Of a DNA stretch of 64,000 nucleotides, positions 41,924 through 54,195 are shown piece by piece (the first letter of the stretch is position 1; each line of letters starts with the position of its first letter). The stretch is from Peptococcaceae bacterium 1109 (GTDB lineage: Bacteria > Bacillota > Limnochordia > Darwinibacteriales > Darwinibacteriaceae), in NCBI GenBank assembly GCA_001028815.1, contig LDJB01000002.1:124001-188000 (forward strand), in the 5' to 3' direction. The notes beneath the pieces are model-generated. The model was not told the DNA's origin. It made no database searches and was given only the letters and a program-made list of their open reading frames with translations. A program made the position numbers and the translations under genes.

Positions 41924-43114
41924 ATGCGTCACCATGGAATGAACTCCCAGGACAACCGAGATCACAACCGGGCTGCTTTGCTTTCCCTTGTGCGCAGCCA
42001 CGGACCGATCTCCCGTTCCGAACTTGCCCGGCGGAGCGGGCTGAGCAAGCCCGTTGTTACTGAGATCGTGGACTCTTTGATCAACGCTAACTTGATCTAC
42101 GAAAGCTATAAAGCCAAGTCAGGGGTGGGCAGGCGCCCTGTTATGCTGGAGATCAACCAGGACAGCCTCCACATGCTTGGCATTGACCTAGCCCGCACCC
42201 ACGTGGAATTCATGGTCACCGATCTTACTGGCAACTCCCTGAAGACCGTTCGGCGCCCCCTAAACACAGAAAGTGACGAGTTCTCCACCCTAGAGTTAAC
42301 ACGCCTCCTCGCAGCGACCACCAAAAAGCTCATGGCAGAATATGACATTATCGGAATTGGGATCGCCCATCCCCGTCCCTTAAGCAGCCGAAAACGGATC
42401 GTTGTTGGCTCAGAAGGACAGCCAGGATGGATAGCCTTGGACGTCCAGCCAGCTCTCTCTCAGGAGACTAATGTACCCATTTTCGTGGGAAATGATGCGG
42501 ATGTGGCGGGACTGTACGAGAAATGGTTTGGCGCTGCCCGAGACCTGCACGATTTTATCTACGTTATGGTAGGAGAAGGGGTGGGGGCTGGGATCTTTTG
42601 CGCAGGAGCCCTCCTCCTGGGAAGCCGGGGCATGGCTGGAGAGTTCGGCCACATTAAAATCAAGTCAGGGGAAAGGGAGTGCCTGTGCGGCGGCCGGGGA
42701 TGTTTGGAAACGGAGCTTGCCCTCCCTGTCTTGCTGGAAAAGGCCTCAGAGGCCCTGGGGCGCCCCCTCGAGTCAGTGGAACAACTCAGCGCAGCACTGG
42801 AGGAAGGCAGTGGCCTGGTGAAAGAAGTTTTCCATGGCTACGCCCGTACTATGGCAATTCATGTGGGCAATCTGATCAACATTTTTGATCCCGCGGGAGT
42901 AATTATGGGCGGAGAAATTGCCCATTTAGGTAAGTATCTTGAGGAAAGGCTCCACCAAGAGCTGGGCGAGGTCGTTCACCCGCTGTTGCGAGACGGCTTC
43001 ACCCTGCGGTTTTCCGCCGCGGCGGATAACATGGTGGCCAAAGGGGCCTCCATCTTGGTGCAGGAACACTTTTTTGCCTATCCTCACAAGTACATTGCTG
43101 AATTTAGGGGGTGA
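41924..43114 (+). CDS. ROK-family transcriptional regulator (XylR/NagC type)
   Basis: 396 residues. An N-terminal winged helix (NRAALLSLVRSHGPISRSELARRSGLS, about residues 12-40) precedes the ROK sugar-kinase-like domain; the zinc motif is CLCGGRGCLE near residues 247-256 and the ATP-like region is MVGEGVGAGIF. The ATG at 41924 has AAAGGA before it; a later ATG at 41939 is also possible. AGTTAGGATAACT (41893-41905), a 13-bp inverted repeat, lies just upstream and may be its own operator. It precedes a sugar importer in the same direction, its probable target. Confidence 0.9.
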   Translation: MRHHGMNSQDNRDHNRAALLSLVRSHGPISRSELARRSGLSKPVVTEIVDSLINANLIYESYKAKSGVGRRPVMLEINQDSLHMLGIDLARTHVEFMVTDLTGNSLKTVRRPLNTESDEFSTLELTRLLAATTKKLMAEYDIIGIGIAHPRPLSSRKRIVVGSEGQPGWIALDVQPALSQETNVPIFVGNDADVAGLYEKWFGAARDLHDFIYVMVGEGVGAGIFCAGALLLGSRGMAGEFGHIKIKSGERECLCGGRGCLETELALPVLLEKASEALGRPLESVEQLSAALEEGSGLVKEVFHGYARTMAIHVGNLINIFDPAGVIMGGEIAHLGKYLEERLHQELGEVVHPLLRDGFTLRFSAAADNMVAKGASILVQEHFFAYPHKYIAEFRG

Positions 43115-43178
43115 TCGCTCAAGGAAAACCTACTGTGTTGCCTGATGCCTAGTGGAAAATGAAAAGGGAGGTAATTGC

Positions 43179-44540
43179 ATGCGCAATCGGATGATCCTCT
43201 GGCTCTCACTCATTCTGGTAGCGGTGCTCATCGCGGCACCTGTGGCTAGCGCCGCAAAGCTACGGATTGTGAGCAGCATTTCCGGTGGCAAAGACCCTGA
43301 AGAAGTGGAACTCTTTGCTAAGGAAGTAAGTGAACACATTGGGATAGAAGTGGAGTGGATTCGCCCCTCCGGCGATGACTTCCTCCAAACCGCCCTGCGG
43401 GCCGGTGAGCGCTTTGACTTGATTTACCTCAACACACCCTTTATGGATGTACTAGTGGCAGAAGGCGCCCTCACGCCTCTCACCGACTTCATCAAGAACT
43501 CGCCCATCCTGTCGGATCCAGATGTGATCCCACCAGAAGAATGGGAGATGCTCCGCTATCCTGATGGAGAGATCTATTCGGTGTTTAATAAGTACGAAGG
43601 CGGCACCATGCCCATCGTACGGGCTGACTGGCTTGAAAAACTGGGCTTGGATATCCCCGAAACCTTAGACGACTTCTACAATGTCCTAAAGGCTTTCGTG
43701 GAACAAGACCCCGATGGCAACGGCATTGACGATACCTACGGCCTAAGCACCGCGGGCCTTTACGACATCCAGCCCTTTATGGGTGCCTTTGGTGTCAAAC
43801 AAAGGTACGTCATCGATGAAGATGGCCGCCGCACCATTCCCTATGCTAGCGATGCAGCCATCCCCGGCTTCGAATGGCTGAAACGTCTCTACGATGAAGG
43901 TATCCTCGATCCCAACTTCGTCACCAACACTACCGCAGATATGCGCAACCTCTTCCTCGCGGATAAGCTTGGGATGAACACATACTGGGATATGTGGGTA
44001 GGCCTCTACAACAACACCCGCTTGAACGAGGATCCCAACACTGAGTTTAGGGCAATGGGTATTGCTGGGCCTGTGGGGCCAAATGGGGAACGCATCCTCC
44101 GCCGGGGCGACCCCAGTATCTGGGCTATCCCCATCAATGCCCAGAACCCTGAGGGAGCTAAGAAGTTCCTCGAGTTTTGGCATACAGAAGCAGGCATCCG
44201 CATGGGCTCCATCGGTGTCAAGGGCCACGACTACATCGAACATCCTGATGGCACACTGGAGCTCACCGAGGTGGGCAAACTGCATAACATGGACCACGGT
44301 GTACCTCGCTGGTACAACAAGAACGTGATCAACCCCTTCGGCGACCTTCCTGGCGTGAAGGACGCGGAGGCCATCATTAACCAGTACGCCACTCTGGAAA
44401 TCTCCACCGCTGATTGGCCCAGGGCAGAACCGATTGTGAACGAATATGCCTTTATGGCTATCACGGGCAAGATGCCTGTGGCTGATGCAGTGCGCCAGAT
44501 GCGCAAAGAACTGCTTGATGCCGGGCTGATCGACTACTAA
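43179..44540 (+). CDS. Sugar ABC transporter substrate-binding protein (YtcQ/LipO type)
   Basis: 453 residues exported by a signal peptide (RNRMILWLSLILVAVLIAAP, cut after VASA). The WLEKLGLDIPETLDDFYNVLKAF and DPDGNGIDDTYGLS segments mark the group of large binding proteins for plant oligosaccharides such as LipO/YtcQ. GGGAGG stands before the ATG at 43179. Downstream of the ROK gene and upstream of two permeases after a strong hairpin. The ligand is unknown. Confidence 0.9.
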   Translation: MRNRMILWLSLILVAVLIAAPVASAAKLRIVSSISGGKDPEEVELFAKEVSEHIGIEVEWIRPSGDDFLQTALRAGERFDLIYLNTPFMDVLVAEGALTPLTDFIKNSPILSDPDVIPPEEWEMLRYPDGEIYSVFNKYEGGTMPIVRADWLEKLGLDIPETLDDFYNVLKAFVEQDPDGNGIDDTYGLSTAGLYDIQPFMGAFGVKQRYVIDEDGRRTIPYASDAAIPGFEWLKRLYDEGILDPNFVTNTTADMRNLFLADKLGMNTYWDMWVGLYNNTRLNEDPNTEFRAMGIAGPVGPNGERILRRGDPSIWAIPINAQNPEGAKKFLEFWHTEAGIRMGSIGVKGHDYIEHPDGTLELTEVGKLHNMDHGVPRWYNKNVINPFGDLPGVKDAEAIINQYATLEISTADWPRAEPIVNEYAFMAITGKMPVADAVRQMRKELLDAGLIDY

Positions 44541-44550
44541 AGCGTCTCCC

Positions 44551-44585
44551 AGGTGCGGCCCCCAAAACCTTTTGGGGGCGCACCT
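44551..44585 (+). terminator. Intergenic hairpin between binding protein and permease genes
   Basis: AGGTGCG-G-CCCCCAAAA pairs with TTTTGGGGG-CGCACCT around a CC loop (one bulged G). There is no T-run, so transcript stabilisation or partial termination is likelier than complete stop. Confidence 0.65.
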
Positions 44586-44617
44586 CTCCCCATGGACCTT
44601 TGAGAGGAGGTTGCGGC

Positions 44618-45505
44618 ATGGGCAAACTGCGGCTCCGCAAATACGCCCAGCTTTACTTGATGGTGCTCCCCACAATCGCCTACTTCTTGATCTTTTCCAT
44701 CTATCCCATCATCCAAGGCGTGATTACCAGCACACAAAAGCCAAGGCTGTTGGGGGGCGGAGAGTATGTGGGGTTAGCTAACTACCGCGATGTACTTCAG
44801 GACCGGACGTTTTGGCAAGCACTCACTAACACCCTTGTCCTGAGCGGCGGCATGATCGCCTTAGGAGTGATTATCCCCTTTATTGTGGCCATCGCCCTGC
44901 ACGAAGTACCCTTTGCACCCTTGCGCAAGCTGACCCAAACCATTATCTACACGCCCCACCTCTTCTCATGGGTGGTTGTGGGAGGCATCTGGATTCAAGT
45001 GCTCTCTCCCACTAGAGGGTTGGTAAACGAAGTGATTAAGCTCTTTGGTGCCCAGCCCATTCATTTCCTCGCGGATACAGGGTGGATCAGGCCCACGCTC
45101 ATCCTGCTTAACTCGTGGAAGGGTACTGGGTACAATGCGGTAATCTACTATGCCGCCTTAAGCTCATTGGATCCCCAAATCTACGAAGCGGCAACAGTGG
45201 ATGGCGCCAGCCGCTGGCAGAAGATCACCAAGCTCACCGTACCCCTTCTCCTGCCTACTGTGGGAGTAGTATTCATGCTCTCTGCGGTGGGGGCACTGCG
45301 CATCTTTGATCAGGTGTTTATTCTCCGCAATGCCGCCACTACCCGCACCATCAATGTGCTCATGACATACGTCTATGACCTGGGCATGGTCCAGTTTAGG
45401 CTGGGAATGTCCACAGCAGCTTCGTTCTTAGTCACTCTGGTCGGTTTGTTCACCGTGGGCTTCTTGCGTAAGGCCATGCGGGTGGACCAAACGGACTTAG
45501 CGTAA
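44618..45505 (+). CDS. CUT1 ABC transporter permease (LplB type)
   Basis: 295 residues and six helices. The EAA loop reads YEAATVDGASRWQKITKLTVPLL near residues 188-210. The ATG at 44618 follows AGAGGAGG; the frame opens at a TTG (44600) upstream. It belongs to the LplB/YtcP-type pair that serves LipO-like binding proteins. Followed by its partner after 12 bases. No ATPase gene here. Confidence 0.9.
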   Translation: MGKLRLRKYAQLYLMVLPTIAYFLIFSIYPIIQGVITSTQKPRLLGGGEYVGLANYRDVLQDRTFWQALTNTLVLSGGMIALGVIIPFIVAIALHEVPFAPLRKLTQTIIYTPHLFSWVVVGGIWIQVLSPTRGLVNEVIKLFGAQPIHFLADTGWIRPTLILLNSWKGTGYNAVIYYAALSSLDPQIYEAATVDGASRWQKITKLTVPLLLPTVGVVFMLSAVGALRIFDQVFILRNAATTRTINVLMTYVYDLGMVQFRLGMSTAASFLVTLVGLFTVGFLRKAMRVDQTDLA

Positions 45506-45517
45506 GGAGGGGCCAAT

Positions 45518-46366
45518 ATGCGCACTAGGCTCACGATCGCGGATTGGATCTTATCCCTTATTATGGTGTGCCTGATTCTGGTCACCGTGGTGCCGCTCCT
45601 GAATGCCTTAGCCCTATCCTTTTCCAGCAACCTTGCGGCAGTTGAGCCAGGAATCCACCTCTGGCCCAAGGAGTTCAGTATAGTCGGGTACCAGACTGCC
45701 TGGCGCAAGCTGCAGTTTTGGCGCCCCTTCATGAACAGCGTCTATGTAACTGCGGTGGGTTCCTTCCTGCACATGGCCGCAAGCTCTATGGCAGCCTACG
45801 CTTTGCTGCAGCGGGACTTTCCCCTCCGCAAGCCCGTTATCTGGTTGATGCTCCTGTCCATGACGGTGCCAGGAGAGGCAATTATGGTGCCCTTGTACAT
45901 TGTCAACCGGGAGCTGGGCCTCTTAAACACCTACACTTCCCTGATTATTGCGGGGATGGTGTCGGGCTTTACCATTTTGCTGCTGTTTAACTACTTCCGC
46001 AGTGTGCCCCTTTCCCTGATGGAGGCAGCTCGCTTGGATGGTGCGGGCGATTTCACCATCTTTACCCGGGTCTTCCTCCCTGTGAGCAAGCCTGGCCTTG
46101 CCGCAGTGGGCCTCTTTCAGGTCGTAGGGCGTTGGAACCAATTCCGGGAACCTCTGCTCTACATTACAAACAAAGCCAAGAGCACGATCCAAATCGCCCT
46201 GCGGGAGGTGTCTATGCTCAGCGATGCCACCAGCGGCACTGATGTGGTGCTTGCCAACACCCGCATGGCCGCTGTAGTGATCGGCGTGAGCGTCCTCGTT
46301 TTGGTGTTCCCGTTCGTTCAGAAGCACTTTATCCAAGGGATTGTCTTGGGGGCCACCAAGGAATAA
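45518..46366 (+). CDS. CUT1 ABC transporter permease (LplC/YtcP type)
   Basis: 282 residues with six membrane helices and the EAA loop MEAARLDGAGDFTIFTRVFLPVS near residues 168-190. GGAGGGG precedes the ATG. It is the last gene of the ROK-controlled importer and ends at a strong terminator shared with the convergent Gfo/Idh gene. Confidence 0.9.
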   Translation: MRTRLTIADWILSLIMVCLILVTVVPLLNALALSFSSNLAAVEPGIHLWPKEFSIVGYQTAWRKLQFWRPFMNSVYVTAVGSFLHMAASSMAAYALLQRDFPLRKPVIWLMLLSMTVPGEAIMVPLYIVNRELGLLNTYTSLIIAGMVSGFTILLLFNYFRSVPLSLMEAARLDGAGDFTIFTRVFLPVSKPGLAAVGLFQVVGRWNQFREPLLYITNKAKSTIQIALREVSMLSDATSGTDVVLANTRMAAVVIGVSVLVLVFPFVQKHFIQGIVLGATKE

Positions 46367-46439: not shown

Positions 46440-47492
46440 CTATGCAAAGGAAATCTCCTGATGCTGTTCTGCTGAGTCGTAGATAGCCTGCATAATCTTG
46501 GCAGTGATAATCACCGTGTCGATATGGGAAGGCAGTTTTTCTCCTGTTTCGATGCAGTTGATAAAGGCATCGATCTCGTTCTGGAACATGTCTTCCATCG
46601 TGAAGTCCGGCTTGTACTGGACTAATGCACCGTTTTCTGCGGTGTAGACTGTGAAATCCTTGCCGTACTGCAGGCGGATGCCCGCTTTGTCACCCATGAA
46701 GTCGATGAACATTTCCTCTTCACCGATGTTCTGAGCCCAGGCTCCGTTGAGGGTGATCACAGGCCCATCGGTGCGGATCATGCCCGTGACCGAATCCTCC
46801 ACATCGTAAACCCCATCGTACTTCGGCGGCCCTGCCCACATGTTTTTATATGCATAGGCCTTCATGTCTTTCCCCAGCTTGCAGAAGATTTCCCCTGTAA
46901 CTGTCCGGGGCGTAGGATCGCCGCAGCAGTACATCACGATGTCCAGGAAGTGCACACCCCAGTCGATAAGGGCGCCGCCCCCTGCAACGGCCTTGGTGGT
47001 GAAATCCCCGCCCAGCCCAGGGATGGAGCGGTGGGAACGGAAGCTCACGTAAACGTGGAAGATTTCCCCGAGCTTGCCGTCGTCGATGTACTGTTTAATC
47101 AGGTTCACAGCTGTGTTGAAGCGGTTGACCACTCCGATGTTCAGCACTTTGCCGCTCTCATGCTGAGCAGCCTGCATCTCCAGGGCTTCTTCATACGTCC
47201 GGGCCGCGGGCTTCTCGCAGAGGACGTGCTTGCCTGCTTTGAGGCAGTCGATGGTGATGGGTGCGTGGACGTTGTTGGGAGTACAGACAGAAACCGCTTC
47301 CACTTCTGGGTCCTCAAGGATTTCTCTGTAATCGGTGATTGCGATCCCGCAGCCGTACTTCTCTACCGCCGCTTGTGCCCTTTCGGGGATGATGTCGCAG
47401 AAGTACTTGATTTCTGCTTTCTCGTTCTTCATATAAGCTGGGATATGAGCTGCGTTAGCAATAGTCCCGCAGCCAATGATTGCCACTTTCAT
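46440..47492 (-). CDS. Gfo/Idh/MocA-family oxidoreductase
   Basis: 350 residues. VAIIGCGTIANAAHIPAY binds NAD(P), VCTPNNVHAPI and VLCEKPAARTYEEA (EKP motif with the catalytic lysine near residue 95) follow, and GGGALIDWGVHFLDIVMYCCGDP near 170-192 is the second-domain signature. Members oxidise or reduce sugars or cyclitols. AAAGGGAGG precedes the ATG at 47492. It is the last gene of the UroD-fold sugar cluster, which suggests sugar interconversion with the epimerase at 51987. Confidence 0.9.
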   Translation of the reverse strand: MKVAIIGCGTIANAAHIPAYMKNEKAEIKYFCDIIPERAQAAVEKYGCGIAITDYREILEDPEVEAVSVCTPNNVHAPITIDCLKAGKHVLCEKPAARTYEEALEMQAAQHESGKVLNIGVVNRFNTAVNLIKQYIDDGKLGEIFHVYVSFRSHRSIPGLGGDFTTKAVAGGGALIDWGVHFLDIVMYCCGDPTPRTVTGEIFCKLGKDMKAYAYKNMWAGPPKYDGVYDVEDSVTGMIRTDGPVITLNGAWAQNIGEEEMFIDFMGDKAGIRLQYGKDFTVYTAENGALVQYKPDFTMEDMFQNEIDAFINCIETGEKLPSHIDTVIITAKIMQAIYDSAEQHQEISFA

Positions 47493-47539
47493 TGATCTTG
47501 CCTCCCTTTCAGAGTGTGTTCGTCTCTACCCTTATCCCG

Positions 47540-48790
47540 CTAACGCCACAGGCCGCTTGTTGCTAGTTCCTTCGCGATGGTGGTCCAGATGGTGAACCTC
47601 TCGGGATGGTTATCGCAGGTGTGGGTGTCCTTCAAAACGATATCCATTGTACATCCCCTAGAGGCGATTATCGCATCTCTAATGTACTGGCGGATGTAAT
47701 CTGGATCAAAATCCCCCACAATTGTCCCAGGATGGGGCTTCCAAGAGAGGATAAACCGCCCTTGGATCTGTTCCGCGCACTTGGGGACATCGGCCCAAGG
47801 AGAGACAGAAATCCGCCGCAAGTTGGGGATGGTCATCACTGTCTCCAGCTTCCTGGTGAGGTCCTCACAGCAGCCATACCCAGTGAGGCCGAACTGTTCC
47901 AAGAGCTTAAGCTCGTAGGGGAAGACAAACTCTTTAAACATAGCAGGAGAAATGTGGGTCATGTCCTGAGCCTCTGCAGAGCCCCACATATCGATGGTGC
48001 GCACCCGCTCCGGGTTGAAATCTGCCTGGGGCAAATCGTTTGTGTAGGTTGGGCCGGAGCAGGAAAAGCCCACATCCCCTGCAAGGTGGTAGTAATCCTC
48101 ATTGTTCGGGCTGAGAAGGTTCAAGGCAGCGTATTGATCAATGATTGACTGGTGGCCTTCTTGGAGAATACGCATGGTCGCGTGGACCATATCTGGGTGA
48201 TCGTACATGTCCAGCATTACCTGGTCCAAGCCCCTCAGCTTGCAGTACTGGTTCATGAGATGAAACTCGATATTGTTCACGCCGTAGGTTACCACATTCA
48301 GAATACCATCAAACAGCTCGTGAGCCAGGGCTTCCCTGCGGCGGGTCTCTTCCTCATCGTGTTCCACCTTGGGCGGCACCAGCTTTTCCAGATCGTCGTA
48401 GTTTATGAGCACCGGGTCGAACCCCCACGCCCCCGTGGTAGAGCTGGGCCTAAACTTAGGCTCCAAACCCCAGCTGGTGTGGTTGATAGCTTTATACACC
48501 ACCCACACCTTCTCGATCACCCGGTCATCGTTGAAGTGCTCGTACATGTAGATCCGGGTACGGAGGTTGTACTCAATGCGCCGGGCTTCCTCATCACTGC
48601 ACTCCAGGGTATCCTGGGGCAGAAGCTCGCGCCACGACCCTTCCGCGGACACATACACCATGGGCCTCTCTGACTGCAGGCTGTTGTGCTTCTTCCACAG
48701 CCGCCGCCGCTCTGCCATGATGGGCAGTTCAGCGATTTCCGCAACTCGTTTCGCCAATTCCCTGATGATTTGCTTGTCCTTTGCGTTCAT
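47540..48790 (-). CDS. UroD-fold protein (uroporphyrinogen decarboxylase/MtaA superfamily), second type
   Basis: 416 residues with the UroD/MtaA barrel pattern (MYDHPDMVHATMRILQEGHQ near residues 195-213, SPAMFKEFVFPYELKLLEQFG near 281-301). It carries the motif GYGCCEDL near residues 304-311 and DTHTCDNHPERF near 388-399, instead of the H-x-C...C pattern of the first family member in the cluster (52945). The two cysteines and C392 could form a different metal site. It is not a heme enzyme by context: no other heme genes are near, and the long N-terminal region is unlike UroD. It follows the importer permease and precedes the Gfo/Idh gene. Function unknown. Confidence 0.8.
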   Translation of the reverse strand: MNAKDKQIIRELAKRVAEIAELPIMAERRRLWKKHNSLQSERPMVYVSAEGSWRELLPQDTLECSDEEARRIEYNLRTRIYMYEHFNDDRVIEKVWVVYKAINHTSWGLEPKFRPSSTTGAWGFDPVLINYDDLEKLVPPKVEHDEEETRRREALAHELFDGILNVVTYGVNNIEFHLMNQYCKLRGLDQVMLDMYDHPDMVHATMRILQEGHQSIIDQYAALNLLSPNNEDYYHLAGDVGFSCSGPTYTNDLPQADFNPERVRTIDMWGSAEAQDMTHISPAMFKEFVFPYELKLLEQFGLTGYGCCEDLTRKLETVMTIPNLRRISVSPWADVPKCAEQIQGRFILSWKPHPGTIVGDFDPDYIRQYIRDAIIASRGCTMDIVLKDTHTCDNHPERFTIWTTIAKELATSGLWR

Positions 48791-48813
48791 CTACGCTGCT
48801 CCTCTGCTGTAGT

Positions 48814-49683
48814 TTATCCCTTGATACCGGTTAAAGCGATTCCTCGGATAAAGGTCTTCTGTGTTGCAAAGAAGAGAGTAATAATCGGTATGGTCATCAG
48901 TGTGGAGGCTGCCATGAGCAGCGCCCACTCTGCGCCGTACTGCCGCTGGAACTGCTGAAGGCCTAGGGCCAGCGGGAACTTGGAGTTGGTATTGATGTAA
49001 ATCAGGGGCATGAGAAACTCATTCCAGTTCCCGATGAATGTCAAGAGCGCGGTTGTTGCCAAGGCCGGCTTGGTCAAAGGCAGCATGATCTGCCAATAAA
49101 TACGCAGTTCAGAACAGCCATCGATCCGGGCCGCATCCTGCAAGTCCATGGGTAAAGACATCAAGAATTGCCGGATCAGGAAGATGTAGAATGCTCCCCC
49201 GAACAGAGTGGGAACCACCAGGGGTTTGTAGGTATCAATCCAGCCCAAGTTCTTAAACACTACAAACAGCGGCACCATGGTCACTTGATACGGAAGCATC
49301 ATTGTGGAAACCAAGATCATGAACACAATATCTCTACCGGGCCACTTTACCCTAGAAAAGCCGTAAGCCACAAAGGACGATGACAAAGTGGTAAAGATGG
49401 TGGCAGGCACCGCGATGGTCAAGGTGTTCTTCAAGTACGTGAAAAACGGGATGTACTGCACAGCTTCAACGTAGTTGGACCACATGGGCGGCCGAGGGAT
49501 CCACACCACTGGGACCCTAAAGAGCAGGTTTTCTGGCTTAAGGCTGGTGCTGATCAGCCAGAAGAAGGGTACAGCCACCGCGAAACCGAGGAGGGCTCTG
49601 AGGAGCGTTACAAACACTACTAGAGCGGTTTCTTGCACCTTCTTGCTGCGCCATCCTTTCGAGCGCTGAGTACTAAGAGTCAT
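48814..49683 (-). CDS. CUT1 carbohydrate ABC transporter permease (MalG type)
   Basis: 289 residues; six helices and EAA loop QDAARIDGCSELRIYWQIMLPLTKP near residues 180-204. It overlaps the upstream permease stop by 11 bases, so the two are coupled. The following gene, the UroD-fold protein at 48790, begins 23 bases after its stop. Sugar unknown. Confidence 0.9.
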   Translation of the reverse strand: MTLSTQRSKGWRSKKVQETALVVFVTLLRALLGFAVAVPFFWLISTSLKPENLLFRVPVVWIPRPPMWSNYVEAVQYIPFFTYLKNTLTIAVPATIFTTLSSSFVAYGFSRVKWPGRDIVFMILVSTMMLPYQVTMVPLFVVFKNLGWIDTYKPLVVPTLFGGAFYIFLIRQFLMSLPMDLQDAARIDGCSELRIYWQIMLPLTKPALATTALLTFIGNWNEFLMPLIYINTNSKFPLALGLQQFQRQYGAEWALLMAASTLMTIPIITLFFATQKTFIRGIALTGIKG

Positions 49684-50578
49684 AATGCACCCACCTTCCT
49701 GAGCTGCGGAATAACAGCAGGGTAAAGACTAGGATAACGATGAACAACAACCACGCCATCGCCGCGGCATACCCCATGCGCAGGTAAGAAAAGGCGTTCT
49801 GGTACAGGTAAATGGCGTAAAACAGCGTTGAGCCTAAAGGACCGCCTGGCGGGACGTTAGAGCCTGCCCCCCGGCTGATCACGAAGGCTTGGGTAAAATA
49901 CTGGAAGGTGGAGATCATGCCCATAATCAGGTTAAAGAAAATGGTGGGTGTCAAGATGGGCAGAGTAATGTGGCGAAGCTTTCGCCACCAGCCCGCCCCG
50001 TCCAGTTCAGCGGACTCGTATAAAGCCTCTGGCACGTTTTGCAGGCCCGCGAGGAAGATGATCATAGTTCCCCCCGTGGCCCACGCTCCCATCAAGATGA
50101 GCCCCGGTTTACTCCATGTGGGATCAGTAAACCACCCTGGCCCGCTAAAGCCCATGGATTTGAGCAAGGTGTTCACGATTCCGTACTGGGGGTTAAGGAC
50201 CCACATCCAAAGGACCGAAGCGGCCACCGTAGGAACGACTGACGGTAGATAGAAAAGAGTGCGGAAAAACGTAGTGAGCTTGCCTTTTTCATTGAGCAGT
50301 ACCGCCATAACTAGGGCCACAAACAGCCAGATAGGCAACCCCACAATCACCATATACATGGTATTGCTGATGGCCGTCTTGAACTGGGGGTCCATTTGCA
50401 GGAGGCGGATGTAGTTTTTCCAGCCGATGTACTGCGGTTCATTGACTAGATTGTAGTTGGTCAAGCTGTAATAAGCGGACATGATCATAGGGTATAAAGT
50501 AAAGCCTAAAAAGCCGATTATCCACGGACCGATAAAAAACAGCCCCACCGCCAACTTCCTCAGTGTGCTGCGGCGCAT
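49673..50578 (-). CDS. CUT1 sugar ABC transporter permease (MalF type)
   Basis: 301 residues. The start MRRSTLRKLAVGLFFIGPWIIG leads to the first helix, and the EAA loop is YESAELDGAGWWRKLRHITLPIL near residue 195-217. The ATG at 50578 is favoured over 50584 because GGGGAGGG is then six bases away. Its C-terminus GRWVHYDS is nearly the same as that of the permease at the left end of the window, suggesting related importers. A hairpin separates it from the binding-protein gene. Confidence 0.9.
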   Translation of the reverse strand: MRRSTLRKLAVGLFFIGPWIIGFLGFTLYPMIMSAYYSLTNYNLVNEPQYIGWKNYIRLLQMDPQFKTAISNTMYMVIVGLPIWLFVALVMAVLLNEKGKLTTFFRTLFYLPSVVPTVAASVLWMWVLNPQYGIVNTLLKSMGFSGPGWFTDPTWSKPGLILMGAWATGGTMIIFLAGLQNVPEALYESAELDGAGWWRKLRHITLPILTPTIFFNLIMGMISTFQYFTQAFVISRGAGSNVPPGGPLGSTLFYAIYLYQNAFSYLRMGYAAAMAWLLFIVILVFTLLLFRSSGRWVHYDS

Positions 50579-50597
50579 ATGCATCCCTCCCCTAAAG

Positions 50598-50625
50598 GGG
50601 AGAAGGGGAGTTTTCCCCTTCTCCC
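50598..50625 (-). terminator. Intergenic hairpin between binding protein and permease genes
   Basis: Eleven-base stem GGGAGAAGGGG (50598-50608) with CCCCTTCTCCC (50615-50625), loop of six. No T-run on the minus strand beyond the loop. Third example of a hairpin at this position in the window. Confidence 0.6.
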
Positions 50626-50634
50626 TGTGTTTCT

Positions 50635-51900
50635 TTAGAATGCCATCATCTCATACTCGAACTGCACGAGCTGCTGAGCTTGATTGAGGGCTTCTTCAGG
50701 TGTCAGCTGTCCGTAGAGTGCTTGTTCAGCGAATTGGCCGAGAGTGTCGAGGAAGAACTGGTCAATTGTTGTGAGCGGGCCGCTGGAAGATGCATTGGGG
50801 CTCTCCAAAGCGTGCAGGCCGAAAGCGAGAACAGGCATCTCATCTACGAGCTTCTCTGCTACAGAGCGGCGAGGAGGCATGTTGGTCAAGAGCCTTGCCA
50901 TTGCTTCGCTGCCCTTCGGTCCAGAGATGTACTCGATAAAGCGCCATGCAGCTTCAGGGTTCTTCGCACCGGTGGGGATGCAGAACATGCTGCCGCCAAC
51001 ACTTGTCCAGCCCTCGATACCGCCTTCAGGGGCTGGGAAGGCCATGATACCGTATTCGATTGGGCCGTAGCGAAGGTTAAAGGACTCGATCCACTCACCG
51101 AAGCCAGCCATTGCCACCTGTCCGGCAAAGAGCGGGTTCTGCGGGCTCCAGTAGTTGCCCAATCCGGAAACGAACTCTTGCACAACCTGCATTCCGCCGT
51201 AGCGGTTTACATAGTCTACCATCCAGGTGAGAGCCTTGACAATCTCAGGAGAATTGATGGTGAATACATCGTTTTCTTCGTCAAAGAACTTCCCGCCAAA
51301 GACATGTCCCCAGACCCACAAGCCAGAACCGGCTGCGTCATAGCCTAAGCGGACGATGTTGCCGTTTTCATCCCGCTTGGTCAGAAGGTCTGCTGCGTGG
51401 ACCAACTCTTCAATGGTGCGAGGAGGATTCTCTGGGTCAAGCCCAACTTCCCGGAACGCCTCTTTGTTGTACACGATGAAAGAGGTGTTGGTGGTTGCAG
51501 GAATGCCGTAGAGGCTCCCTTTGTACAGGGACTGACGATAGTTTGCTGGGTAGAAATCATCGGGATCATAGAGCTCAGACTTGGCTGCGAACTCATCCAG
51601 GTTCATAAGCGCTCCCCGCTCAGCCAAACCAGGGATCTGAGTTTCCCATACTGCAGACACTACATCAGGAGGTGTGCCAGCTGCAATTGCAGTGAGCAAT
51701 TTGTCGTAGGAGCCAAAAATGGTGGATGTTTCCACAATGATATCTGGATTTTCTTTCATGAACTCGTCGATCACGTATTTTTGGATATCATCGAGTTCTT
51801 CGCCGCCCCAACCAGTCCAGTATTCAATCTTCACCGGCTCTGCAAAAGCAACTGCTGAAACCAGCAAGACCAGCAGCATTGCTAATACTGTGCGCTTCAT
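50635..51900 (-). CDS. Sugar ABC transporter substrate-binding protein
   Basis: 421 residues, signal peptide MKRTVLAMLLVLLVSAVAFA then EPVKIEYWTGWGG, the family-1 start. GTPPDVVSAVWETQIPGLAERGALMNLDEF and the C-terminal ALNQAQQLVQFEYEMMAF fit sugar-binding proteins. AAGGAG precedes the ATG. It belongs to the UroD-fold cluster, between the sugar epimerase and the permeases. Ligand unknown. Confidence 0.9.
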   Translation of the reverse strand: MKRTVLAMLLVLLVSAVAFAEPVKIEYWTGWGGEELDDIQKYVIDEFMKENPDIIVETSTIFGSYDKLLTAIAAGTPPDVVSAVWETQIPGLAERGALMNLDEFAAKSELYDPDDFYPANYRQSLYKGSLYGIPATTNTSFIVYNKEAFREVGLDPENPPRTIEELVHAADLLTKRDENGNIVRLGYDAAGSGLWVWGHVFGGKFFDEENDVFTINSPEIVKALTWMVDYVNRYGGMQVVQEFVSGLGNYWSPQNPLFAGQVAMAGFGEWIESFNLRYGPIEYGIMAFPAPEGGIEGWTSVGGSMFCIPTGAKNPEAAWRFIEYISGPKGSEAMARLLTNMPPRRSVAEKLVDEMPVLAFGLHALESPNASSSGPLTTIDQFFLDTLGQFAEQALYGQLTPEEALNQAQQLVQFEYEMMAF

Positions 51901-51986
51901 TCACTCTCAACTCCTTAGTCTAGATAGTTTTGCCAAGCCACTTCCACTCCTAGCGTGTTCTTCTCGCCACCACCTCCAACCTTGTC

Positions 51987-52817
51987 TTACAGGATTTCCA
52001 CTAATGCCTTAAGGCTATCTTCAGTGCCCTTTTGGGGGTCACCTGGGCCTTCGTATTCCAGAGACAGCCAGCCGCTGTAGCCTGCAGCTTTCAGGTCAGC
52101 GAAAATGCTCTTCAGGTCCACATCGCCCTCGAGGGCAACAGTTCCAACAAACCGCCGCTGGTCAATGGCTGTATATGTCTGGCCGGTGTAGGATGGGTCA
52201 ACTTCCGCGAAGTCCTTTACGTGGACGTGTTTCACCATGTTCACAAGGCTCTTGATGGCCTTAGTGGGCTCATCGTTCACCAAGAGGAAGTTGCCTGTAT
52301 CAAAGGTGCTTCCGAAGTACGGACTGTCAATCTCCTTAATGATTTCCTCGATTTGCTCTCCCCTGCCTGCAAAGAGCCCGTGGTTTTCCAAAGCCAGTGT
52401 GATGCCGTGCTCTGCGGCGTAGGCTGCCCCTTCTTTGAGGCCAGAGACAATCCACTCCCGGGCTGTTTCAAAATCTACGCCCTCTACAGCGTCGCCAGAG
52501 AACACCCGCACTACCTTGGTGTTCAAGCGCTTGGCAACGTCCACTGCGTCCTTCACCTTCTGCACTTCCGCCTCCCGAGCGCTGGGGTCGGTGTTGACGA
52601 AGTTGTTGCCGATGGCATAGCAAGCCACTTGGAGCCCGTGCTTTTTGGTGAGTTCATTTGCCTGCTCAATTTCCTTGTCCATATCTTTCCAGAAGCAATC
52701 CAGAAGCTCCACTCCCTGTACGGGTAAAGTGGCAGCATAGTTAATGAAGCCTGCCACGTCCATCTTGCCACCAAAGGCGAGGGCGTGGACACTCCACATG
52801 CTAACAGCTAATTTCAT
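51987..52817 (-). CDS. Sugar phosphate isomerase/epimerase (AP endonuclease 2-type TIM barrel)
   Basis: 276 residues of the xylose-isomerase-like TIM barrel. LALENHGLFAGRGEQIEEIIKEI near residues 140-162 and FGSTFDTGNFLLVNDEP near 168-184, KHVHVKDF near 197-204 and LSLEYEGPGDP near 255-265 supply the metal-binding E, D, H and E. Members isomerise or epimerise ketoses or cyclitols. Its own promoter carries the operator at 52893. It works presumably with the Gfo/Idh oxidoreductase of the same cluster. Confidence 0.88.
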   Translation of the reverse strand: MKLAVSMWSVHALAFGGKMDVAGFINYAATLPVQGVELLDCFWKDMDKEIEQANELTKKHGLQVACYAIGNNFVNTDPSAREAEVQKVKDAVDVAKRLNTKVVRVFSGDAVEGVDFETAREWIVSGLKEGAAYAAEHGITLALENHGLFAGRGEQIEEIIKEIDSPYFGSTFDTGNFLLVNDEPTKAIKSLVNMVKHVHVKDFAEVDPSYTGQTYTAIDQRRFVGTVALEGDVDLKSIFADLKAAGYSGWLSLEYEGPGDPQKGTEDSLKALVEIL

Positions 52818-52883
52818 GACTCCACCTCTCTTGCTTTTTCTTAATCAAACTGTATTGTTTTAACCTTAAAGCCATGTTAAGGT

Positions 52884-52913
52884 TATTCTACAGGTTAATC
52901 GATTATCCTTCCA
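52884..52913 (-). promoter_or_regulatory. Promoter with LacI-type operator, upstream of the epimerase gene
   Basis: Minus strand: weak -35 TTGGAA (52913-52908), -10 TAGAAT (52889-52884). Between them lies GGATAATCGATTAACC (52908-52893), centred on TAATCGATTA, a CG-centred palindrome as bound by LacI-family repressors. A 9-7-9 inverted repeat TAACCTTAA...TTAAGGTTA follows at 52861-52885. Confidence 0.6.
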
Positions 52914-52944
52914 AAGGCGGAAATTTTCTTTAAGAGAAAAGGGC

Positions 52945-54102
52945 TTATTGTGAACAGCTGTTACTGTATCTACCGTAGCGTTTACCTGCTTCATACATTG
53001 CCGCGAGATTCTCCAGTGGAGTGTGAGGTACGATGTTATGCCCATCACACAGCAAAAAGCGTCTCCCCTCAGTAACGCCTGATTCTAATAGAGTTTTCGC
53101 AGCCTCTACGATGGCTTCCGGCGATCCTGAATAGAGCAGCATGGGGCTGATGTTTCCCTGCAGCTCCACATCGGGCCCCAAGTCCTTGCGGAGTTTGCCC
53201 ATATCTGTGGGATAGCCTAGGTTAAAGAGGTCAATATCCAGCTCGTCCCGGACCGTGGGCAGCAAGTGCTGGACTTTGCCGCACAAGTGGATTTTGTTCT
53301 TGCCCCTAGACAGTGCCTCTACCAGCCGTTTGTGGTAGGGCAGGACAAACTCCCGGTAGTGGCCGAGGGAGAGATACTGAATGCAGTCATCGGCAAAATA
53401 CCAGCCCTCAACAGGGTAGGAGTGGCCAGTAGCCTTACCCCATGCGAGGATCCGCCTGATGGTCTGGGTGGTGATGAAGTCTAGCAAATCGTGGACAAAG
53501 CCTGGATCTTCGTACAGGTCCATGCAGACCTCCGTTGCACCCCGCATCTGCACTGCCACAGTAAAGGGGCCATCAGTGCCCGCAAAGGGCGACGCCACAT
53601 CACTTAAAGCTGCTCCCTCATACTCCCAGCCCTGCGCCACTCTCCCATTGATGTGCTGGTACGCTTCCCAGATCTGGGGACAGCGCCCAAGGATGGGGTC
53701 CTCAATTTCTAAGTGCAGCAGTTCTCTCTTGTCTTGCAGGAATGGAACGCACCTGGGCATCCCACCGGTGAAGTCGATATCACAGCCAAACCACGCGCCT
53801 TCCCCGGTGTTTTGGTAATCGACTACAACAACGTCCCACCTATCTTTGGGCAAGCCCATTTCCCAATCAGCCCAGACACTCAGCCGCCGCCACTTGTGAA
53901 ACCGCAATTGTGTTTCGAGCATGATCTGGGGATCGGCGAAGTAATCTGCAAAGGACACTCCTTCGCTCATGGCCGGATCCATAAGGAGCAGCCTGGGATT
54001 CATCATAAACAGCACCGGAACACGGCTGGGGTTGCCCCTGTGAAATTCTTCCCACAAGTACTGAACATCTTCGTTATGCCGTTGCACGTCAGTTTGCTGC
54101 AC
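52945..54102 (-). CDS. UroD-fold protein with methyltransferase-like zinc motif
   Basis: 385 residues in the uroporphyrinogen decarboxylase/MtaA superfamily (WEEFHRGNPSRVPVLFMMNP at residues 17-36; SLGHYREFVLPYHKRLVEAL at 245-264). H272-x-C274 (IHLCGKV) and C352 (FLLCDGHNIVPHTP) reproduce the H-x-C-Xn-C zinc pattern of corrinoid:CoM methyltransferases such as MtaA, with a spacing close to that I recall for MtaA. Uroporphyrinogen decarboxylases lack this pattern. No corrinoid protein gene is in the window. Its promoter has the operator at 54171. A demethylase or other C1-transfer role on an imported compound is a hypothesis. Confidence 0.82.
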   Translation of the reverse strand: MQQTDVQRHNEDVQYLWEEFHRGNPSRVPVLFMMNPRLLLMDPAMSEGVSFADYFADPQIMLETQLRFHKWRRLSVWADWEMGLPKDRWDVVVVDYQNTGEGAWFGCDIDFTGGMPRCVPFLQDKRELLHLEIEDPILGRCPQIWEAYQHINGRVAQGWEYEGAALSDVASPFAGTDGPFTVAVQMRGATEVCMDLYEDPGFVHDLLDFITTQTIRRILAWGKATGHSYPVEGWYFADDCIQYLSLGHYREFVLPYHKRLVEALSRGKNKIHLCGKVQHLLPTVRDELDIDLFNLGYPTDMGKLRKDLGPDVELQGNISPMLLYSGSPEAIVEAAKTLLESGVTEGRRFLLCDGHNIVPHTPLENLAAMYEAGKRYGRYSNSCSQ

Positions 54103-54165: not shown

Positions 54166-54195
54166 CTACAGGTTAATCGTTTATCCTTCTAAGCA
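54166..54195 (-). promoter_or_regulatory. Promoter with LacI-type operator, upstream of the UroD-fold gene
   Basis: GGATAAACGATTAACC (54186-54171) with a -10 TAGTAT just downstream (54167-54162) and TTAGAA as weak -35. A 49-base stretch here aligns with that at 52869-52917, differing at about a quarter of positions, chiefly outside the operator. It faces the LacI gene at 54310, which probably encodes the repressor. Confidence 0.58.

Follow-up and report, generated by a model that had tools for sequence, protein, structure and literature searches.

Those proteins of the uroporphyrinogen decarboxylase (UroD) fold that have been characterised either produce heme precursors or transfer alkyl groups. 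The closest described systems are HemE/UroD, the zinc-site methyltransferases MtaA/MtbA (PDB 4AY7/4AY8), the UroD-fold primary methyltransferases (MT1) CdmB, MtoB, VdmB and OdmB, the Type 1 mlp clusters (Kountz and Balskus, PMC10418091) and, on the sugar side, the DgpA/C-glycoside deglycosidase systems. Here we describe two UroD-fold proteins, P7 and P2, encoded within a sugar importer cluster (positions 46440-54102) in a 64,000-nucleotide stretch of DNA (the window) from a heme-less anaerobic Bacillota bacterium. The explanation we prefer, to which we give slightly less than an even chance, is that the cluster is a LacI-controlled operon for utilisation of a sugar or glycoside via a keto-sugar, and that P7 and P2 represent a UroD fold repurposed for a metal-assisted step. 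Our literature searches turned up nothing pertinent on UroD-like sugar enzymes, pinitol demethylation or corrinoid demethylases of methylated sugars.

The model of P7 (pLDDT 84) has MtaA (4AY7) as its first match (Foldseek, E 4e-15), followed by many UroD structures, with a TM-score of about 0.62-0.72 against MtaA. P7 shares the fold and the Pfam family (PF01208) with HemE/UroD, and CdmB matches it at 1e-6. However, its NCBIfam scores are far under the cut-offs of the MtaA/MtbA-type models (58 of 400, 53 of 600 and 84 of 244), and with the hemE model it reaches 56 bits, where the cut-off is 303.

An earlier note on this DNA had read H272-x-C274 and C352 of P7 as the zinc pattern of corrinoid methyltransferases, with similar spacing. 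All three residues are present at these positions, and alignment with MtaA and UroD, which the note had proposed, upholds the H-x-C half of the site. In the profile alignment H272-x-C274 occupies the H-x-C column of MtaA, as does the motif of an MtaA-like paralog, and H272 and C274 are invariant across four P7 orthologs. The full MtaA/MtbA triad was not recovered: the column of the third zinc Cys of MtaA holds H355 in P7. The register here (LAPGC-GIAPMTPLEN in MtaA, LLCDGH-NIVPHTPLEN in P7) is fixed without gaps, since TPLEN is common to both proteins. C352 pairs with an Ala of MtaA, and orthologs from genomes G008 and G016 (45-47% identity to P7) have Arg at C352 and Asn at H355. C352 was therefore rejected as the third ligand, being off register and Arg in orthologs; the similar motif spacing (77 vs 78 residues) is an indel coincidence. 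The column of the UroD catalytic Asp (human D86) holds Q97, a Gln invariant in the P7 clade. With His in place of the Cys and Gln in place of the Asp, P7 therefore has neither the MtaA triad nor the UroD Asp, and in the tree it groups outside the third-Cys clade. CdmB, MtoB, VdmB and OdmB, members of the same superfamily, also have a non-canonical or absent metal site, and CdmB functions without zinc (PMC13222342). Unlike P7, these proteins have corrinoid and activating partners: no adjacent corrinoid protein (CP), methyltransferase II (MTII) or activase was found in the window or in the P7-ortholog clusters.

The P2 sequence has no significant match in Pfam, NCBIfam or PDB. At the family level there is a link to PF01208, which the best member matches at 3e-5, and the top PDB matches of the confident P2 model (pLDDT 91.5) are all UroD or MtaA, with E down to 5e-7 and TM-scores mostly of 0.4-0.6; the MetE fold was matched more weakly. 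The YGCC motif (Y305-G306-C307-C308) and T391 are invariant in the P2 family, E309 and K387-D388 nearly so. By its model, P2 is a remote, unannotated branch of the UroD fold. The structure models of both proteins agree with the fold assignment made in the earlier note.

The cluster comprises seven contiguous open reading frames (ORFs), all on the minus strand, placed as previously reported. ORFs, Pfam and structure models bear out the claimed gene content, which is a CUT1 importer, a TIM barrel, a Gfo/Idh/MocA dehydrogenase and two UroD-superfamily proteins, and no heme or corrinoid gene lies within the cluster. Intergenic gaps in the series from P7 to the Gfo/Idh gene are 127, 86, 50, -11, 23 and 47 bp. 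With such spacing the cluster looks like one operon, or two, with P7 by itself and a second running from the TIM barrel through Gfo/Idh. The top PDB match of the Gfo/Idh protein is DgpA (9e-56); the second PDB match of the TIM barrel is 4OVX, a Dali neighbour of the C-glycoside deglycosidase TIM subunit (PMC8563793). The DgpA/C-glycoside deglycosidase systems likewise combine a DgpA-like Gfo/Idh protein with a xylose-isomerase-like TIM barrel, but no beta subunit was found in the P7/P2 operon, which has UroD-fold proteins instead.

In the proposed pathway, an operon under LacI control would include the CUT1 importer bringing in a sugar or glycoside, a ring hydroxyl of which (probably at C3) would be oxidised by the DgpA-like Gfo/Idh protein. 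The IolE-like TIM barrel would then enolise, epimerise or eliminate. P7 and P2 may act in the cytoplasm on the resulting oxygen-rich intermediate in a metal-assisted step of the lyase, aldol or isomerase type, P7 with the H-x-C half-site of the superfamily kept, His or Asn at the thiol-methyltransferase Cys and Gln at the UroD catalytic Asp. What we infer here is metal binding, a keto-sugar as the substrate and whatever reaction P7 or P2 may catalyse.

Two matching palindromes flank P7, the first gene of the operon. The palindrome GGWTAAWCGWTTAWCC has two copies in the window (54171 and 52893) vs 0.10 expected in shuffled sequences, and both sites are conserved in G032, a sister genome from the same genus. 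On this basis a small regulon with P7 as a member is predicted.

A scan of genome contigs found only five P7 loci, three of which also came from a separate genome search. The G032 cluster keeps the order of P7, TIM barrel, permeases, P2 and Gfo/Idh. The G016 cluster includes P7, CUT1, LacI, a second PF01208 protein, TIM barrel and Gfo/Idh, and G012 repeats this layout, its last UroD gene being more distant; the set of CUT1, LacI, Gfo/Idh, TIM barrel and two UroD-fold proteins thus recurs in both. G008 combines P7 with CUT1, a second PF01208 protein, a TIM barrel and a GH32-type enzyme, and no Gfo/Idh or LacI gene was found on the contig of its P7 ortholog. A PF01208 member takes the place of P2 as the second UroD protein of G016, G008 and G012. 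The presence of two UroD-fold proteins per sugar operon thus recurs regardless of which second protein is present. No corrinoid gene was found in the P7-ortholog clusters of G032, G016, G012 and G008. G008 encodes 22 UroD proteins, including the P7 ortholog, and no PF02607 (corrinoid protein) match in a genome that is 85% complete. The lack of a nearby corrinoid gene was rejected as a decisive argument, as some relatives split MtaA-like and corrinoid proteins across contigs. The nearest relative of P2 outside the genus (G021, 59%) is accompanied by CUT1, LacI and two alpha-L-fucosidases.

Eleven PF01208 proteins are encoded in the window's genome, and several UroD genes outside the operon lie next to a CUT1 or CUT2 sugar importer. 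ALAD (hemB) was not found in this genome (control search positive in 11 of 14 genomes), and neither were a pterin-binding methyltransferase and MetE (controls positive in most reference genomes) or a methyl-corrinoid:folate methyltransferase. The check for corrinoid and methyl-transfer genes suggested in the earlier note did find one methyltransferase-type corrinoid protein (L018:15549-16253), on a different contig from the operon. It belongs to another locus, C3 (L018:11878-16253), together with its own MtaA-like His-Cys-Cys UroD partner, DUF1638 and one RACo activase. C3 resembles a Type 1 mlp cluster, but with a single Mlp. The P7/P2 operon shares with Type 1 mlp clusters the presence of several UroD paralogs and the lack of a folate methylase; unlike them, it has no corrinoid protein, Ram activase or His-Cys-Cys sites. 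A PocR-domain AraC regulator adjoins the C3 mini-cluster. As no MetE or pterin-binding (MetH-type) protein was found in the genome, the MtaA-like and corrinoid proteins could constitute a candidate methionine route. DUF1638 recurs near UroD or P2-family genes, both with and without a corrinoid protein (L067, L107, L153, L154, L157).

Our survey covered 73 genomes of the class. The ten genomes with hemB have 0-2 PF01208 proteins each, and large UroD families (3-25 paralogs) are confined to genomes without hemB, often near sugar importers. This is the opposite of the co-occurrence with heme synthesis genes considered in the earlier note. PF01208 scores above 400 bits occur in 9 of the 10 hemB genomes and in G071; the other hemB-less genomes reach at most 267 bits. 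In the 24 genomes with at least eight UroD proteins, 389 UroD proteins were counted vs 33 PF02607 proteins. Sugar importers are located within five genes of 51 out of 103 UroD proteins in the surveyed loci. UroD-fold genes of different subfamilies often form adjacent pairs or triplets (L088, L113, L123, L126, L137, L022, L023), an arrangement suggestive of heteromers or of consecutive steps. Longer UroD proteins of about 455-470 aa (L085, L086, L090, L103 and kin) form a conserved clade with F-V-C..C replacing H-x-C..C, and corrinoid genes are not adjacent to it. The CP/RACo labels on L024 and L085 were due to histidine-kinase domain matches and were disregarded.

Alternatively, P7 and/or P2 may function as MT1, demethylating an O-methylated sugar or methyl glycoside after import and placing the methyl group on the lone corrinoid protein of the other locus, where the adjacent MtaA-like His-Cys-Cys UroD protein would hand the methyl group to a thiol. 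We consider this possible, if rather doubtful. The superfamily provides precedents in MtoB, VdmB, OdmB and CdmB, and its O-methyltransferases replace Cys ligands (PMC10418091). Several observations favour such a methyltransferase and weigh against a keto-sugar pathway. Apart from MetE, the characterised non-heme members of the superfamily in the cited papers are transferases of alkyl or methyl groups. A distant P2 relative in G349 has a pterin MTII and a corrinoid protein as neighbours, another in G221 stands in a CUT1-UroD-P2-UroD-amylase-like-MTII series, and a fragment of a P2 relative in G104 lies within a corrinoid cluster. The corrinoid-adjacent UroD proteins of G104 have H-x-C..H and H-x-D..N sites, and therefore the absence of the third Cys does not exclude a primary methyltransferase. 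Per-genome counts of UroD and corrinoid proteins correlate (Spearman 0.56), and a corrinoid protein is encoded in 23 of the 24 genomes rich in UroD proteins. The third-ligand Cys is negatively associated with sugar importers (Fisher 9e-6), but the tree shows a single split, so the association is not independent evidence and was dropped as proof. With neither MetE nor MetH-type proteins in the genome, a corrinoid route to methionine would also be useful. On the other hand, the P7-ortholog clusters are free of corrinoid genes, G008 (only 85% complete, though) has no PF02607 protein, the window's genome has no pterin MTII, its lone corrinoid protein already has a partner elsewhere, and no copy of the operator motif turned up in the retrieved locus carrying the corrinoid genes. 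The demethylation of a methylated sugar put forward in the earlier note therefore has no direct support in the window's genome, with distant P2 relatives beside corrinoid and MTII genes speaking for it; the use of the UroD fold for an unrelated reaction, also mentioned there, fits slightly better.

Cofactor-free decarboxylation of a sugar-derived acid by UroD-like enzymes appears unlikely: the fold is the same and uronic-acid catabolism would suit a sugar operon, but the column of UroD Asp86 is an invariant Gln in the P7 clade and UroD makes no use of the conserved H-x-C pair. The PF01208 annotation would also allow a true uroporphyrinogen decarboxylase or some other tetrapyrrole role, which we find scarcely credible given the lack of ALAD, the hemE score and the near-restriction of true UroD (>400 bits) to hemB-positive genomes; the missing hemB and the class-wide survey refute true UroD function for practical purposes. 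The keto-sugar pathway explains the locus best because of the sugar context, the DgpA-like oxidase, the IolE-like barrel, the corrinoid-free P7 clusters and the lack of a folate acceptor enzyme. More broadly, and more tentatively, we speculate that this UroD branch, with up to 25 paralogs per genome and often two different ones per operon in heme-less anaerobic Bacillota, might have become a set of cobalamin-independent, metal-dependent sugar enzymes, the pairs perhaps working as heterodimers in the manner of the two MetE barrels.

The features of the locus are collected in the table; the genes and their order, the operator sites, fold, residues and orthologs are shown by the sequence itself. 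An adjoining plus-strand operon (41924-46366) with a ROK regulator, a solute-binding protein and two CUT1-type permeases meets the P7/P2 operon tail to tail.

Table. Genes and putative operators of the P7/P2 locus (window coordinates).
Feature	Position	Strand	Basis or remarks
Gfo/Idh/MocA dehydrogenase	46440..47492	-	Pfam; closest solved kin DgpA, glycoside 3-oxidoreductase (PMC11239390)
P2, remote UroD-fold family	47540..48790	-	structure model; without Pfam or NCBIfam model
CUT1 permease	48814..49683	-	Pfam BPD_transp_1
CUT1 permease	49673..50584	-	Pfam BPD_transp_1
CUT1 solute-binding protein	50635..51900	-	Pfam SBP_bac_1
IolE/xylose-isomerase-like TIM barrel	51987..52817	-	Pfam AP_endonuc_2; PDB kin Art22, 4OVX, IolE
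Second putative LacI operator GGTTAATCGATTATCC	52893..52908	.	P7/TIM-barrel gap; kept in G032
P7, UroD-fold protein (PF01208)	52945..54102	-	Pfam URO-D, E 9e-42
Putative LacI operator GGTTAATCGTTTATCC	54171..54186	.	LacI/P7 intergenic region; kept in G032
LacI-family regulator, divergent from P7	54304..55335	+	Pfam

The small operon and its predicted regulator sites lend themselves to direct substrate screening. If sugar demethylation is true, it would represent a new methyl-group route in anaerobic digesters. If, instead, the paralogs act on sugars, the automatic label 'uroporphyrinogen decarboxylase' or 'methyltransferase' would be mistaken for genes numbering in the hundreds within just this class, and there would be a new enzyme activity to describe.

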